Source of the DNA: an uncultured Dokdonia sp.
GTDB taxonomy: Bacteria > Bacteroidota > Bacteroidia > Flavobacteriales > Flavobacteriaceae
Length of the DNA: 64,000 nt
Reading direction: 5' to 3'
NCBI RefSeq assembly: GCF_947496725.1
Contig: NZ_CANMDS010000001.1
Coordinates: 744,001-808,000, forward strand
Shown here: piece after piece, positions 10,199-58,300 of the stretch
How the letters are laid out: every line of letters starts with the position of its first letter
Position numbering within the stretch: the first letter of the stretch is position 1
Notes under the pieces: model-generated
The model's database searches: none
What the model was told of the DNA's origin: nothing
What the model saw: the letters and a program-made list of their open reading frames with translations, nothing else
Position numbers and translations under genes: made by a program

Positions 10199-10749
10199 AA
10201 CACACTTATCATCAAAAATAAAACTCCAAATAATTTACGCAGTTCCCTTAAGCCTATTTTTAATCTTGACTTTACGGTTCCCAGCGGGATGTTTAACTCA
10301 TCACTTGCTTCTTGCTGGGTCATACCCTGAAAAAACAACGCATCTATCACCACACGATACTTATCTTCTAGCCCATCTGTATGCTCTTGCAAATCCATAT
10401 GTTCTATAGCCAGTGATGTAGACTGTAAATGATATACGTTAGAATCGTCTGTTTGGACTTCTTTATTCATTTTTCTTTTACGGCTACGCACTTTGTCTAT
10501 AGCCGTATTCTGGACCACCCTAAAAAGCCACGTAAATAGACGCGCTTTGTCTGCATCATACTTATGTGCGTTTTTCCAGATTTTTACAAAAGATTCTTGA
10601 AGTACATCTTGCGCAAGCTCCTCATCGTGTGTCACTTTTATAGCTACACCATAGAGCGCAGGCGCATAATGGTCATATAACAACCCTATGGCTCGCTCAT
10701 CTCCAGTTTTAAGAAGATCTACAATATGTTTTTCAACAAATGTCTTCAA
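10195..10749 (-). CDS. ECF sigma factor, SigK-like
   Basis: A 184-residue ECF sigma factor with region 2 (LYDHYAPALYGVAIKV ... DVLQESFVKIWKNA, RLFTWLFRVVQNTAIDKVR) and region 4 (GMTQQEASDELNIPLGTVKSRLKIGLREL). It uses a TTG start; no ATG is available nearby. It pairs with the overlapping RskA-like anti-sigma gene. In Mycobacterium, SigK/RskA control secreted fasciclin proteins, and here a fasciclin gene is divergently adjacent, so the pairing is probably the same. Confidence 0.92.
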   Translation of the reverse strand: MKTFVEKHIVDLLKTGDERAIGLLYDHYAPALYGVAIKVTHDEELAQDVLQESFVKIWKNAHKYDADKARLFTWLFRVVQNTAIDKVRSRKRKMNKEVQTDDSNVYHLQSTSLAIEHMDLQEHTDGLEDKYRVVIDALFFQGMTQQEASDELNIPLGTVKSRLKIGLRELRKLFGVLFLMISVL

Positions 10750-10805
10750 ATAATGTAGTTTTTAAGAATTAACGAAATTTTGGGAATACACTTTCATCCA
10801 ATGGT

Positions 10806-10813
10806 CAAAGTTA
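10806..10813 (-). promoter_or_regulatory. Housekeeping -7 box for the sigma/anti-sigma operon
   Basis: The minus strand reads TAACTTTG about 56 bp before the sigma start. The divergent fasciclin gene has no clear TAnnTTTG box, which fits control by an alternative sigma factor. Confidence 0.5.
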
Positions 10814-10872
10814 GTACGTACATCTAACATAGAAAAAGATTCTATAATAAACTCAACAAGTCCCACTTTATT

Positions 10873-11385
10873 ATGCAGTTCTTAAAAAAAATTACGCTCC
10901 TTATAATTGTCTCATTATCAATAAGTAGCTACGCACAATCTGACATTGTAGACATTATCGTAACCTCATCAGACCACACAACACTCGTTACCGCCATAAA
11001 AGCTGCAGGGCTTGTATCAACACTTAAAGAAGATGGACCATACACCATATTTGCCCCTACTAATGAAGCGTTTGATAAACTACCTCCCAAACAAATAGCC
11101 ACCCTTCTTAACCCAGAAAACAAAGCAACGCTCGCATCTATTCTGTCATATCACGTAATAGCCGGATCACTAACCGAGACAGAAATAATAAATAAAATAA
11201 ATGTAGAAAATGGCAGTTTTATAGTACAGACAGTAAATGGCCAGCAACTCGTGGCTACCCTAAAGGATAATAAAATAGTAATCACAGATACAACGGGTCA
11301 CACTTCTCTTCTCACTAAGACCGATATAAATGGGAAAAATGGCATCATACACGTGATAGATACAGTGCTAAAACCTAGCAACTAA
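10873..11385 (+). CDS. Secreted fasciclin (FAS1) domain protein
   Basis: A 170-residue protein with a signal peptide cleaved after SISSYA, then a single FAS1 domain. The H1 motif (YTIFAPTNEAFDKLP) and H2/YH motif (ILSYHVIAG), plus a C-terminal GIIHVIDTVLKP, are clear. FAS1 domains usually mediate adhesion or ligand binding outside the cell. It is divergent from the sigma/anti-sigma pair that probably regulates it, and ends in a strong terminator. Confidence 0.95.
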   Translation: MQFLKKITLLIIVSLSISSYAQSDIVDIIVTSSDHTTLVTAIKAAGLVSTLKEDGPYTIFAPTNEAFDKLPPKQIATLLNPENKATLASILSYHVIAGSLTETEIINKINVENGSFIVQTVNGQQLVATLKDNKIVITDTTGHTSLLTKTDINGKNGIIHVIDTVLKPSN

Positions 11386-53291: not shown

Positions 53292-54629
53292 CTACAACTT
53301 CACATTAAGGAGTTGCCCCGTGAGCTGTAGTAACTGTATTTCTGCCAGCTTTGCCGTATACTTTGCGGCATTCTTAGTGGTTTGTGCATTGAGCAAGTTA
53401 AGTTGTGCCTGTCTAAACTCTACGCTACTTACCTGCCCTAGTTTAAATCGCTCTTCTGATCGATCAAAGTTAGCCTGACTTGTACTTACATTTTGCTCTT
53501 GAAGCTCATAGATTTTAAGGGCATTGAGATAATCTCCCTTTGCATTTGCAATGTCTCCCAGTACCTGCTGCCTTAGTTGCTCTTGGGTATACTTTTGATT
53601 TTCTAAAAAGATTTTTGCATTCTTTACTCCTATGATAGAGCTGCCGCCATCAAATAAATTCCACTGCAGGGTTGCACCTGTTTGAAAACCTGTAGAGGTG
53701 CTTGAGGCAAGAAAATTTGTAGCAGGAAAATTACCCTCTGTCCAGCCGTAACTACCTGTAAGACCTATGGTAGGTAAAAGCAAAGATTTAGCTTGTTTAA
53801 TTTGATAATCACTTATCGTAATATTTTGCTCTGCTTGAAGAATAGATACATTATTTGTGATACCCTCACTTATAAAGCGCTCTACTTCTAGCGGGTTTAT
53901 AAAAGTAACGGTAGTATCTGCACTTTTTAAGTCTTCCAGCTCTCTAGCGAGGACTACGTTAAGATCTCGCTGTGCGTTACGTAACTGCTGTCTGGTAGTA
54001 AGAATGTTTGTACTATCCGTCACAATATCTACTTGTGCATTGAGCACCTCTAACTTATTTACTTGTCCATAATCAAATTGATATTGCGCACGTACCTCTC
54101 TTGCTTTTGAAATATCTAAAGCGGTTTCTAAAACAGCTAAGTTTTCTTCAATACGAGCCACTTCATAATACACAGAAAATAGCTGCAACATTACATTCTC
54201 TATGGTCTCTCGTGCTTGCAGCTGTGATAAGCCATACTGCTCTTTTAATGTTTTATAATTATAGTACCTACCTAACCCATCAAACAAGGTATAGTTAAGA
54301 TTAATAGAAGCATTATATCTTGTGGTCTCTGCCCCATCTACAGCGCTTACATTACCATCTTGAAAGGTAGCCTCTTGATCATCTATACTATAATTTACAC
54401 CTGCATTACCTGTGAGGGATGGCAAGTAGCCACTATTTAAGATACTTTTATTGTTTTCAGCTATGGCGACTTGATTATTTGCGAGTAGTATCCCAAAGTT
54501 ATTCTCAAGCATTATCTGCACGGCCTCTTCTTTTGTGAGTAATTGTGCTGGGAGGTCTTGTGCATACGCTTTCGCGAAAGCGAATAACAACACCATAGCA
54601 ACTATACTTTTTATAAAAGATTGTATCAT
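53292..54629 (-). CDS. TolC-family outer-membrane efflux protein
   Basis: A 445-residue outer-membrane channel of the RND system. The signal peptide ends FAFAKAYAQ, where AFAKA comes from palindrome copy 21. Two OEP repeats follow with the typical helical barrel (YEVARIEENLAVLETALDIS; KLGQVSSVEFRQAQLNLLNAQ). It overlaps the 226-residue gene before it by 4 bp (ATGA), so it is the last gene of the operon. Confidence 0.94.
   Translation of the reverse strand: MIQSFIKSIVAMVLLFAFAKAYAQDLPAQLLTKEEAVQIMLENNFGILLANNQVAIAENNKSILNSGYLPSLTGNAGVNYSIDDQEATFQDGNVSAVDGAETTRYNASINLNYTLFDGLGRYYNYKTLKEQYGLSQLQARETIENVMLQLFSVYYEVARIEENLAVLETALDISKAREVRAQYQFDYGQVNKLEVLNAQVDIVTDSTNILTTRQQLRNAQRDLNVVLARELEDLKSADTTVTFINPLEVERFISEGITNNVSILQAEQNITISDYQIKQAKSLLLPTIGLTGSYGWTEGNFPATNFLASSTSTGFQTGATLQWNLFDGGSSIIGVKNAKIFLENQKYTQEQLRQQVLGDIANAKGDYLNALKIYELQEQNVSTSQANFDRSEERFKLGQVSSVEFRQAQLNLLNAQTTKNAAKYTAKLAEIQLLQLTGQLLNVKL
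54567..54582. repeat. Chromosomal palindrome copy 21
   Basis: Exact core encoding AFAKA at the signal-peptide end of the TolC-like gene. Confidence 0.95.
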
Positions 54630-55306
54630 CTGTTTGCAGTCATTTTAAGTAATAATGTTTCTAGTGTACGTCTTTGCACTAGGTTGTCTTGATTTGCTCT
54701 TATGAACTCAATATCATTTATATGAAAAACGAGTTCTCCTTCTTCTTCTTCAATCCCGAGCTGGCTACTAAGGTAAGTTTGAGCTCCAGATAGTCCTCCT
54801 TTTTTTATAGTTACTTCACCTCCAGATTTAGTAAGCAAAAAGCTATTAAAATCTAAAAAACGCTCTATACCTGATAGCATTTTAAAACCTACAAGTCCAG
54901 CAGTAATCATTAACACATATATAAACAACTTATCAAGTCCAAACTCGTTATCGCCTGTAAAAATTGCAACGAGCAGCCAGAAAGCTATAAGCCCTACAAG
55001 TGACAGTAACACACCTAGTACTATGGATATGATATCCATAATTTTTGCTTTGGAGGTGCGCTTTACTACAATCTCTCCTGTGGTTGTGTTTTCTTCATAA
55101 TGAAAGCCTAGTTCTTCTAGGTTTTCAAGATTTGCGATGGCCGTTTCTTTATGGGCAATTTGCTCTTCCAGCTTTTCTGTAGAAACATCTATAGATTGCT
55201 TTCTAATAGTATCTAGCAAGTTGAGTTTTGCTTCATAAGTAAGCTTGTCGCTATGCTCTAGCACGGCAACAATTTCTCGCGGTGTATGATTTTTATACAA
55301 ATTCAT
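54626..55306 (-). CDS. Uncharacterised membrane protein in the RND operon
   Basis: A 226-residue protein: helical cytoplasmic N-terminus (about 1-85, with YEAKLNLLDTIRKQSI), two membrane segments (about 88-118 and 128-150), then a C-terminal cytoplasmic or periplasmic domain (KSGGEVTIKKGGLSG, FHINDIEFIRANQDNLV). No family is recognised. It is between the RND pump and TolC genes, overlapping the latter and separated by one base from the former, so a role in efflux is likely but unproven. Confidence 0.75.
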   Translation of the reverse strand: MNLYKNHTPREIVAVLEHSDKLTYEAKLNLLDTIRKQSIDVSTEKLEEQIAHKETAIANLENLEELGFHYEENTTTGEIVVKRTSKAKIMDIISIVLGVLLSLVGLIAFWLLVAIFTGDNEFGLDKLFIYVLMITAGLVGFKMLSGIERFLDFNSFLLTKSGGEVTIKKGGLSGAQTYLSSQLGIEEEEGELVFHINDIEFIRANQDNLVQRRTLETLLLKMTANR

Positions 55307-55307
55307 T

Positions 55308-58300
55308 TTACGCTATATCTGTTTTAGGCTTAAAGGGAACTTGAAGCTCTTGGTTGTCATTCTCGTGCTCTTCTTCCATTTCCTTTACGGCTCTCTCTTG
55401 ATTTTCTCTAGCTGTCTTTCTTCCCTTCTGTAACATATCTGTAGTGGTCTTTACCCAGTTGCTAAATGATAAAAAGATAGGAAGCATTACAAGCGTAAGT
55501 ACCGTTGCAAAGCCTATCCCGTATGCAATAGATATTGCCATTGGGATTAAGAACTGTGCTTGTCTACTCTCTTCAAAAATAAGCGGTGCAAGACCAGCAA
55601 TAGTTGTGATTGAGGTAAGAAAGATAGCTCTAAATCTAGAACGACCAGCATCAAAAATAGCATCCTCAAAGGTCATACCTTCTCTTAGGTTAGTATTAAA
55701 CTTACCTATAAGCACCAAGCCATCATTTACCATAATCCCTATCAAGGCTATAATACCAAGCATAGATAATATGTTAAGCGGGAAGTCGTGTATCCAGTGC
55801 CCCCAGGCTACTGCTGGCAAACTCAATGGTATAAGAAGCAATAACATCAACGGCTGACTATAACTTCTAAAGGTAAATGCAATCACTATGTAAATAAGTA
55901 ATAGCACCGTAAGGCCTACAGGTATAAGTGAGTCTGTAAGTTTACCTGCCTCTCTGTTTTGACCTTCGTATGATGGTGTTACTGTAGGATACTTAGATAG
56001 TATCTCTGGCATCACGTTAGTACGCAAATCTGTCATTACATCTGTGGCACTTACTTCTTTTGGGTTTTTGAGATCTGCAAGTATTTGTATCTCCCTTCTA
56101 CCCTCAAGGTGGTTTACTGCCACATCACCACGCTCAATAGTGTAAGATGCTATCTCATTGAGAGGCACCTTTGCTCCAGATGGCGTAGTGATACGCATAT
56201 CATCTAGATTAGATATAGATGATCTATTATCCCGATCATAACGCACCCATACTCTTATCTCATCTTGACCTCTCTGAAAGCGCTGCGCTTGTGCCCCAAA
56301 GAATCCTGCTCGTACCTGTGCCATTACAGTTTGCAAATTGAGTCCCAGTGAGTATGCAGACTCGTTGAGCTCTAATCTAATTTCTTTAATACCCGCAGGG
56401 TCATTATCTGTTATATCTTTTAATACAGGGTTGGTCTCTAGTGATTGCTTAAGCTCAGCCTTTGCTGCTTTAAGTTCGGCTATATTATTTCCTAATAAAG
56501 AAACTGCAACTGGGCTTCCTCCAAAGTTACCTCCGCCTCCATACACAAGGCTTTCTTTACCTATTACAGGACCTACCTTCTCTTGTATCATATTACCTAC
56601 TATGATAGAAGTAACCTCGTTAGGTCTTTCTTCTCCCGGAAGCATATTTATGCTTAAAGAAGCTGTAGATGTCCCTGGCCCAATGTTTTTGATAATATTC
56701 TCAAACATAGGTCCATCTATCTCATTTTTATACTTTTCAGTTAGCTCTTTATTTGTCTCTACAACCTTTTCTTCTATCATAGAGATAATACTGTCTGTGA
56801 TAGCCGCATTTGTACCATTAGGCATCTCAAGACTTATTCTCACATTATCACTTGCAACACGCGGGAAAAACGCTCCACGTATAATACCCGCCTCAAAACT
56901 CCCAGAGGTGAGTAAAATAAATGCAATAAAAAATGAAAACATCAAGAACTTGTAGTCGAGTGCAAATCTCAGTACTGGGCTATACACGCGATCACGCAAC
57001 CAGACCATAATACGATCTCCAAACTCATTTATATAGCGCAGTTTTGAGAATAGCTTTGCCATTCCCTTTTTAGGCTTATTGCTTTGTGCTCGCAATGCCT
57101 TAGAATGTGCAAGGTGAGCTGGCAGTATAATGAGGGCTTCTACAAGAGAAACAAGCAGCGTAAGCATTACTATAACCGAAACCTCTCCGAAAAATTCACC
57201 TATTCTTCCATCTAAAAACAAGAAAATACCAAAAGCGAGAATCGTTGTAGTTATTGCCGAAAGAATAGGAGGCAACACCTCCATTGTACCATCTACGGCA
57301 GCTTGTATAGGGGTTTTACCACGTTCATAATGTTGATAGATGTTTTCTGCTATGACAATACCGTCATCTACCAGAATACCTATCACGATAATCATCCCAA
57401 ATAATGATAATACATTAATCGTCACATTAAAATAACCTGCAAGCATAAACATCCCTAAGAATGCCACGGGAAGCCCAAAGGCTACCCAGAATGCTAGTCG
57501 TGTATTTAAAAATACTGATAGAAACAATAGCACCAAGAGCATCCCTACAACGGCATTTTCTGTAAGTAATGCTGTACGTTGTACAAGCGTTATAGATAAG
57601 TCACTTACAACAGCTAGCTGTACATTGTTATACTTTGCATTAAAGTCTTCTATATATTCTTTTGCCTTTTCTGCGGCACCTATAAGGTCTTCTGTATTTG
57701 TAGATGTTATGGTCACATTTACAGCAAGATTTCCATTAAAGTAATTTGCATTAGGTGTTTCAGAAAAACGGTCTCTTACCTCTGCAACATCTTTGAGACG
57801 TATGGTTCTTCCATTAGCATTTGATCTCACAATGACATTAGACAGCTCGTCACCGTAGTAAGCTCTATTATTTGCTCTTATAAGATACTCTTCTGCCTCT
57901 GTTTTTATAGACCCTCCTGTTGTTAATATGTTTGAAGAGCTCACTGCCTGAGATACATCTGCAAAAGACAAGTCGTAAGCCAGCAAACTGTTTTCATTTA
58001 CAGCTATCTCAATTTCTTCTTCAGGATATCCAGATACTGCTATTTGAGAAATACCATCTATGCCACGCAGGTCATTTTCTACCTGGCGTCCTATTTGTTT
58101 TAAAGTCTCAAGCGATACGTTTTCTCCGCTTATAGAAAAAGATATAGTTTGCCTTATTGCTTCAACCTTTGCCACTACAAGAGGCTCCATACCAGAAGGA
58201 AATGAAGGCACACGATCTACAGCATTCTTTACTTCAAGAAGCATAAAATCAATATCCTTCCCTTTTTCTATCTCTACATTAATGCTACCACTGTTTTCTC

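Follow-up and report, generated by a model that had tools for sequence, protein, structure and literature searches.

The window, a 64,000-nucleotide stretch of the genome of an uncultured Dokdonia sp., carries on its minus strand an operon that encodes, in this order, a periplasmic adaptor (MFP), an RND permease, a protein that we denote X226, and a TolC-family outer-membrane channel (Table 1). The X226 gene starts with ATG, is separated by a single base from the end of the RND gene at 55308, and overlaps the TolC gene, which starts at 54629, by 4 bp (54626-54629). The first-pass annotation of this DNA described a gene locked between the pump and TolC genes of an RND efflux operon, and both parts of this description hold, given the spacing and the matches of the neighbors to TIGR01730 (adaptor), PF00873 (permease) and PF02321 (channel). 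An Rfam scan of the region detected only one tRNA, and promoter-like sites (24 vs 20.3 in shuffled sequences) and terminator-like sites (6 vs 4.4) were little more numerous than in the shuffles.

Table 1. Genes of the RND efflux operon and predicted features of X226 and the RND permease; positions are those in the window
Feature	Position	Strand	Basis
Periplasmic adaptor (MFP), 378 aa	58558..59694	-	TIGR01730 above cut-off
RND permease, 1082 aa	55308..58556	-	PF00873, 1.1e-161
RND tail segment covarying with X, residues 1040-1059 (including 1041, 1044 and 1053)	55380..55439	-	Column scan of 123 RND sequences
X226, 226 aa	54626..55306	-	ORF, spacing, homologues, dN/dS
Helical N-terminal domain of X226, residues 9-66, predicted cytosolic	55109..55282	-	AlphaFold model
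Strands 1 and 2 of the PH-like barrel, residues 68-83	55058..55105	-	AlphaFold models
Membrane hairpin, residues 85-143, loop predicted periplasmic	54878..55054	-	AlphaFold models; hydropathy and charge in 40 homologues
Barrel strands 3-8 and closing helix, residues 157-223, predicted cytosolic	54638..54838	-	AlphaFold models
TolC-family outer-membrane channel, 445 aa	53292..54629	-	PF02321, 9.6e-61

X226, its family and predicted architecture

X226 is a real gene that is subject to selection and evolves faster than the pump, given that dN/dS is 0.09-0.17 for X226 and 0.009-0.065 for the three neighbors in the same six genome pairs, one of which is saturated at synonymous sites. Among 15 X226 sequences, with identity down to 23%, 19 alignment columns are invariant. 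As stated in the first-pass annotation, the protein fits no known family: there is no Pfam match at E<=1, the only two NCBIfam matches (E 0.12 and 0.19) are far under their cut-offs, and nothing related was found in the PDB by single-sequence and profile searches. Viral contigs contained no X226 relative either. Scans with the members of the X family yielded matches to DUF308, HdeD, MbnM, SecE, AcrZ and other families at E 0.0007-0.5, each for one to three members and scattered among them, which we read as probable generic similarity between membrane helices. No published report of this gene was recognized in the open-access literature, as represented chiefly by titles and the openings of abstracts.

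The AlphaFold models of X226 (15 sequences; mean pLDDT 89.9, pTM 0.76) and of an orphan relative from genome G102 that is 23% identical to it (25 sequences; mean pLDDT 94.5, pTM 0.83) both begin with a helical N-terminal domain and two strands, which are followed by a long membrane hairpin, a further six strands and a closing helix; in both, the two membrane helices split a PH-like barrel after its second strand. Hydropathy and the model agree with the helical N-terminus, two membrane helices and C-terminal domain that had been noted from the sequence. In 40 homologues, the flank preceding the first membrane helix contains, on average, 2.2 K/R and 0.1 D/E residues, and the hairpin loop has 0 K/R and 2.5 D/E residues, from which the positive-inside rule predicts a cytosolic location for the two soluble parts of X226.

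Comparison of the models with known structures using Foldseek and VIA-align retrieved many PH, EVH1 and PTB domains. Because these alignments cover about 65-90 residues but span model residues ~60-226, they seem to join the two halves of the predicted barrel across the hairpin. A Tetrahymena complex IV subunit (PDB chains 8gym_B, 7w5z_B and 8b6h_DO) matches the models over the hairpin and barrel together; for 8gym_B, the comparison with the X226 model gave Z 6.7 and rmsd 3.8 over 135 aligned residues, and that with the G102 model gave Z 6.0 and rmsd 4.7 over 133 (Foldseek probability 0.99, E 2.5e-3). The chain 8kei_D, which we take to be EROS, aligned with both models, likewise across hairpin and barrel, over 134 residues with Z 5.9 and rmsd 5.7 (X226) and 5.3 (G102). 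Unrelated long-helix proteins scored higher than EROS and the Tetrahymena chains (with Z values as high as 7.9 and 8.1), and none of the Foldseek matches to the models reached E 0.001 or better, so the structural match of X226 to the EROS chain is weak.

The order of structural elements appears to be a stronger argument for a likeness to EROS than the Z scores. EROS is a PH domain in which strands 1-2 and 3-8 are parted by two membrane helices, and PIGH is predicted to share this split arrangement (PMC9767466). Compared with that description, the AlphaFold model of X226 has its elements in the same succession, from PH strands 1-2 through the two membrane helices to strands 3-8 and a closing helix, and differs from EROS in having the extra helical N-domain. 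The resemblance is, then, one of predicted architecture. EROS, also known as CYBC1, stabilizes NOX2, and Ycf4 has been called its plant ortholog (PMC5379978, PMC13296129). Homology of X226 to Ycf4 received no sequence support: the PF02392 (Ycf4) profile had no match at E<=10 in the genome from which the window comes, and hhalign of X against a single Ycf4 sequence gave a probability of 0.6%.

Occurrence and gene order

Eleven of the 18 Dokdonia genomes, including the source genome, have the X226 gene between RND and TolC (contig ends remove the adaptor and part of TolC in G159, and part of the adaptor is missing in G161). In the remaining seven, the pump is present, TolC adjoins RND, and X226 is absent. 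A twelfth match, in G163, was dropped as spurious (E 4.4e-5); it covers residues 42-142 alone and lies within an unrelated 359-aa ORF. In Maribacter, the genus of G075, X226 is present in 35 of the 36 genomes, and TolC is located directly upstream of it in all 30 loci examined. The complete order MFP-RND-TolC-X was read in 10 of these loci (L031, L062, L063, L179-L183, L184 and L185; L063 and L183 come from one genome, and the RND gene of L184 is broken) and is found also in G632, which belongs to another genus. Thus, in both Dokdonia and Maribacter, an extra membrane gene is part of one MFP/RND/TolC operon. The arrangement is not peculiar to a single strain, an outcome that would have counted against the idea put forward in the first-pass annotation, and the order does recur in other Bacteroidetes, unchanged within Dokdonia and as TolC followed by X in Maribacter and one further genus.

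Beyond these genera, the family is rare. In a sample of the Flavobacteriaceae, X226 was identified in 8 of 397 genomes and 6 of 237 genera; nine matches in seven genera were reduced to this number by dropping G018, which, like a second short match in G068, contained stops; the ORFs in these two regions did not match the profile. The order and phylum samples, loose first looks in which very distant relatives may be missed, yielded a single genome each, that of the window (1/296 and 1/395, respectively). In the stretches read from G068, G143 and G102, the relatives of X are located away from any pump gene, and the pumps of these genomes lack X. The pump itself is widespread, being present in 76 of 149 genera at E<=1e-200, and a profile search of 40 fetched pump loci outside Dokdonia and Maribacter found TolC after RND and no X in every one. 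X is, therefore, no general component of the operon, and the original suggestion of an accessory subunit or regulator is supported in part.

Because the family is so rare and yet occupies two different slots within one operon, its presence there by chance is unlikely, and the two slots suggest functional coupling. The distribution could also be read otherwise, namely, that X is a general envelope protein that resides in the operon for expression only and makes no contact with the pump. The three relatives away from pumps, the many pumps without X in the 40 other loci, and the seven Dokdonia genomes that have the pump alone would all fit. We nevertheless consider this explanation unlikely, given that X is found in two different slots of the operon and that the RND tail covaries with X, whereas the adaptor and TolC do not (see below).

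In the phylogenetic tree of X, ten Dokdonia sequences form one group (support 100/99) and the Maribacter sequences another (96/99); the placement of L028 is unsure. Two captures of X, or one capture followed by a move, are both compatible with this tree, in which the deep forks are weak and long-branched.

Covariation of the RND cytosolic tail with X

A difference in the RND C-termini was first spotted by eye and was followed by a scan of all columns in 123 RND sequences. Of these, 45 come from operons with X (11 from Dokdonia, 33 from Maribacter and the one from G632) and 78 from operons without it (7 from Dokdonia, 68 others and 3 from genomes with X elsewhere). Left out of the scan were G474 (contig edge), G477 (RND in two pieces) and L062 (same genome as G483), and 34 of the 36 pumps of the TolC-X order are represented; a second, distant pump of G165 (L056) was likewise left out. 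A column was considered conserved if at least 85% of the 78 X-less pumps agreed, which is the case for 543 columns, and losses were counted in four X lineages (ten Dokdonia, L028, Maribacter and G632) that were defined after the tree was seen.

Every X lineage retains 505 of the 543 conserved columns; a further 29 were lost in one lineage, 6 in two, 2 in three and 1 in all four. The only columns lost in at least three lineages, 1041, 1044 and 1053, all belong to the tail that follows directly on the last membrane helix, as do two of the six columns lost in two lineages (1040 and 1057). The X-less pumps share a juxtamembrane motif, in outline KWLxTGxxVTKEEVERAIKEQ, that is altered where X is present: Trp1041 is kept in 76 of the 78 pumps without X in the operon vs 1 of the 45 with X, and Thr1044 in 68 vs 0. 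Val1053, kept in 75 of the 78, is lost in three of the four X lineages, with Maribacter retaining it. The sister pumps L028, with X, and L048, without it (support 100), differ in Trp1041, a residue that is retained in the three genomes whose X lies apart from the pump.

Three such tail columns appeared in 2 of 20000 random draws of four X-less pumps and in 0 of 20000 draws limited to 63 pumps with at most 30 losses each, and at least three such columns anywhere in RND in 370 of 20000 (1.9%) and 127 of 20000 draws, respectively; these draws are of single pumps, which are not equivalent to clades. In the control proteins, which offer fewer conserved columns than RND, no column was lost in two or more lineages either in TolC (153 conserved columns) or in the adaptor (158 conserved columns), where the control covers three lineages, with L028 missing and only six Maribacter adaptors long enough. 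On the tree, parsimony implies 4 changes of X, 5 losses of the tryptophan and 10 of the threonine, and, of the independent pairs, 3 agree, none oppose and 1 is tied (median p 0.25). There are exceptions: G632 has X and yet keeps Trp1041, G064 and G033 have lost the tryptophan without X, and Thr1044 is missing also in five of the seven X-less Dokdonia pumps. The length of the RND tail was rejected as a marker of X, given that the lengths overlap.

With few lineages involved, the covariation could be a coincidence at a fast-changing end of RND, in which case X might still be an accessory protein that acts through another contact. There are just three agreeing independent pairs, Thr1044 varies also among X-less pumps (10 of 78), and the last RND residues are variable in both length and sequence. 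However, the near-constancy of Trp1041 and Val1053 in X-less pumps and the fixation of the neighboring N1033, E1051, E1054 and R1055 in all 45 X-bearing pumps speak against this reading, and we regard such a coincidence as rather improbable. A by-product of gene insertion is also unlikely because Trp1041 lies ~41 residues before the stop codon and X is not the gene after RND in Maribacter.

The two X-less pumps that lack the tryptophan were inspected for an extra gene. At the G033 pump, we found only a MarR-like gene (our assignment) before the adaptor, and no extra gene was seen inside the G064 operon, in a contig that begins in the adaptor region. On the other strand beside the G033 pump, there are two adjacent small proteins (L242:9697-10137 and 10436-10927), each of which, by eye, has a membrane hairpin and, after it, a possible PH-like stretch.

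In one Dokdonia genome, G152, the pump (L055, G152:C1:1918700-1927700) seems to have been replaced by that of another genus. The upstream ABC-F gene falls within the X-bearing group L021-L023, RND is the sister of another genus's pump (support 100), the adaptor groups outside Dokdonia (99), TolC groups with the TolC of X-less Dokdonia (98), and X is absent. Judging from these groupings, the replacement is a mosaic because TolC is of the Dokdonia X-less type and RND and the adaptor come from outside the genus. The swap fits the notion that X goes with its pump but is weak evidence, given that the swapped stretch includes the X slot.

Proposed role of X226 and comparison with other RND partners

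We propose, with moderate confidence, that X226 is a dedicated inner-membrane accessory or assembly factor of one RND pump of the Flavobacteriaceae, with its hairpin beside the RND protomer and its cytosolic part holding the RND tail. With the RND tail covarying and the gene order shared among genomes, the accessory subunit or regulator of efflux envisaged in the first-pass annotation is now the best-supported reading. Under this proposal, the N-domain and the PH-like barrel would reside in the cytosol, with the hairpin crossing the membrane between strands 2 and 3 and packing beside the RND protomer. In AcrB, both ends of the protomer are cytosolic. The barrel or the N-domain of X226 would hold the C-terminal juxtamembrane tail of RND, taking the place of an arrangement in which, elsewhere, the tail is probably held at the membrane face by the conserved tryptophan, and would thereby stabilize or assemble the transporter, or else tune its cycle. 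We infer the X226-RND contact, the cytosolic placement and the stabilizing or regulating effect from the comparisons described above. Assembly or stabilization might be slightly preferable to gating because of the analogy with EROS. The small number of independent events, the lack of X in most orthologous pumps and the three relatives away from pumps would count against this role.

A more specific version of the proposal, which we offer as a speculation with the odds against it, is that X226 is a bacterial chaperone with an EROS-like split-PH hairpin and an exchangeable RND subunit that was recruited at least twice into one operon, where it would replace the tryptophan-anchored tail as a stabilizing or gating element. 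If so, RND efflux would have a cytosolic control point that is absent from the AcrB model, and bacteria would offer a case of the split-PH membrane hairpin known from human EROS.

It is highly doubtful that X is instead a membrane-stress sensor or signaling protein that recognizes lipids or a protein partner through its PH-like domain and acts on the pump indirectly, for example, on its expression: PH-like folds often bind lipids or peptides, and the predicted hairpin anchor with cytosolic domains would suit a sensor, but no DNA-binding, kinase or protease domain could be recognized in family scans of X226, and the pump protein itself is implicated by the covariation of its tail.

As a pump-dedicated accessory factor, X226 would work like several known partners in kind. 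RND pumps have few known extra components in the inner membrane, and these are not well understood. The four-component RND systems on record include those with MexG, CusF and AcrZ (PMC4338810). AcrZ is a non-essential inner-membrane partner of the RND protomer AcrB (PMC7267776, PMC13095208), a role of the sort envisaged here for X226. AcrZ, however, consists of 49 aa with one helix, whereas X226 is a 226-aa protein with a hairpin and two cytosolic parts and, accordingly, lacks the features of the AcrZ family (PF10766), namely, a length of ~50 aa and a single membrane helix. One member of the X family matched the Pfam AcrZ profile at E 0.046, which we take as chance. MexG of MexGHI-OpmD is an extra inner-membrane protein of an RND operon (16.2 kDa; PMC4338810); it has four membrane helices, unlike X226 with its two, and, by the order of the name, is encoded first, whereas the X gene follows RND or TolC. 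The available text of PMC8277102 mentions MexG, and no fourth component of Flavobacteriaceae pumps was found in it. YbjP, a recently found extra component of an E. coli tripartite RND pump, is a lipoprotein that sits on TolC in the outer membrane (PMC13095208), whereas X226 is predicted to be an inner-membrane protein, and TolC does not covary with it. X226 makes for a natural comparison, given that there are close pumps with and without the partner, two gene orders, and three RND positions (1041, 1044 and 1053) predicted to be at or near the contact. If the proposed role is correct, it would provide a cytosolic handle on a class of pumps studied mostly from the periplasmic side.

Other features of the pump loci

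In most of the fully read loci of the Maribacter type, X is followed by a 60-aa Cys-rich gene (CPYCW...CEVCC; L179:9949-10131, L174:5525-5707 and others) that, presumably, belongs to the CPXCG family. Roughly half of the pump loci without X also have a 60-aa ORF after TolC, so that X probably entered between TolC and this gene; the sequence of the small gene was read in the Maribacter-type loci only. Some pump operons contain a MarR-like gene of ~154 aa (again, our assignment) before the adaptor (L183:12106-12570, L185:1836-2294 and L242:9056-9523), which the Dokdonia operons lack. In the Maribacter genome G477 (64% completeness), RND is split into two ORFs (L184:431-3700), perhaps through an assembly error. 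The single G149 contig carries the same stretch, with an identical X, near each end (L018 and L019), probably as an assembly overlap; the Era-like gene is one ORF in L019 and falls into three shorter ones in L018.
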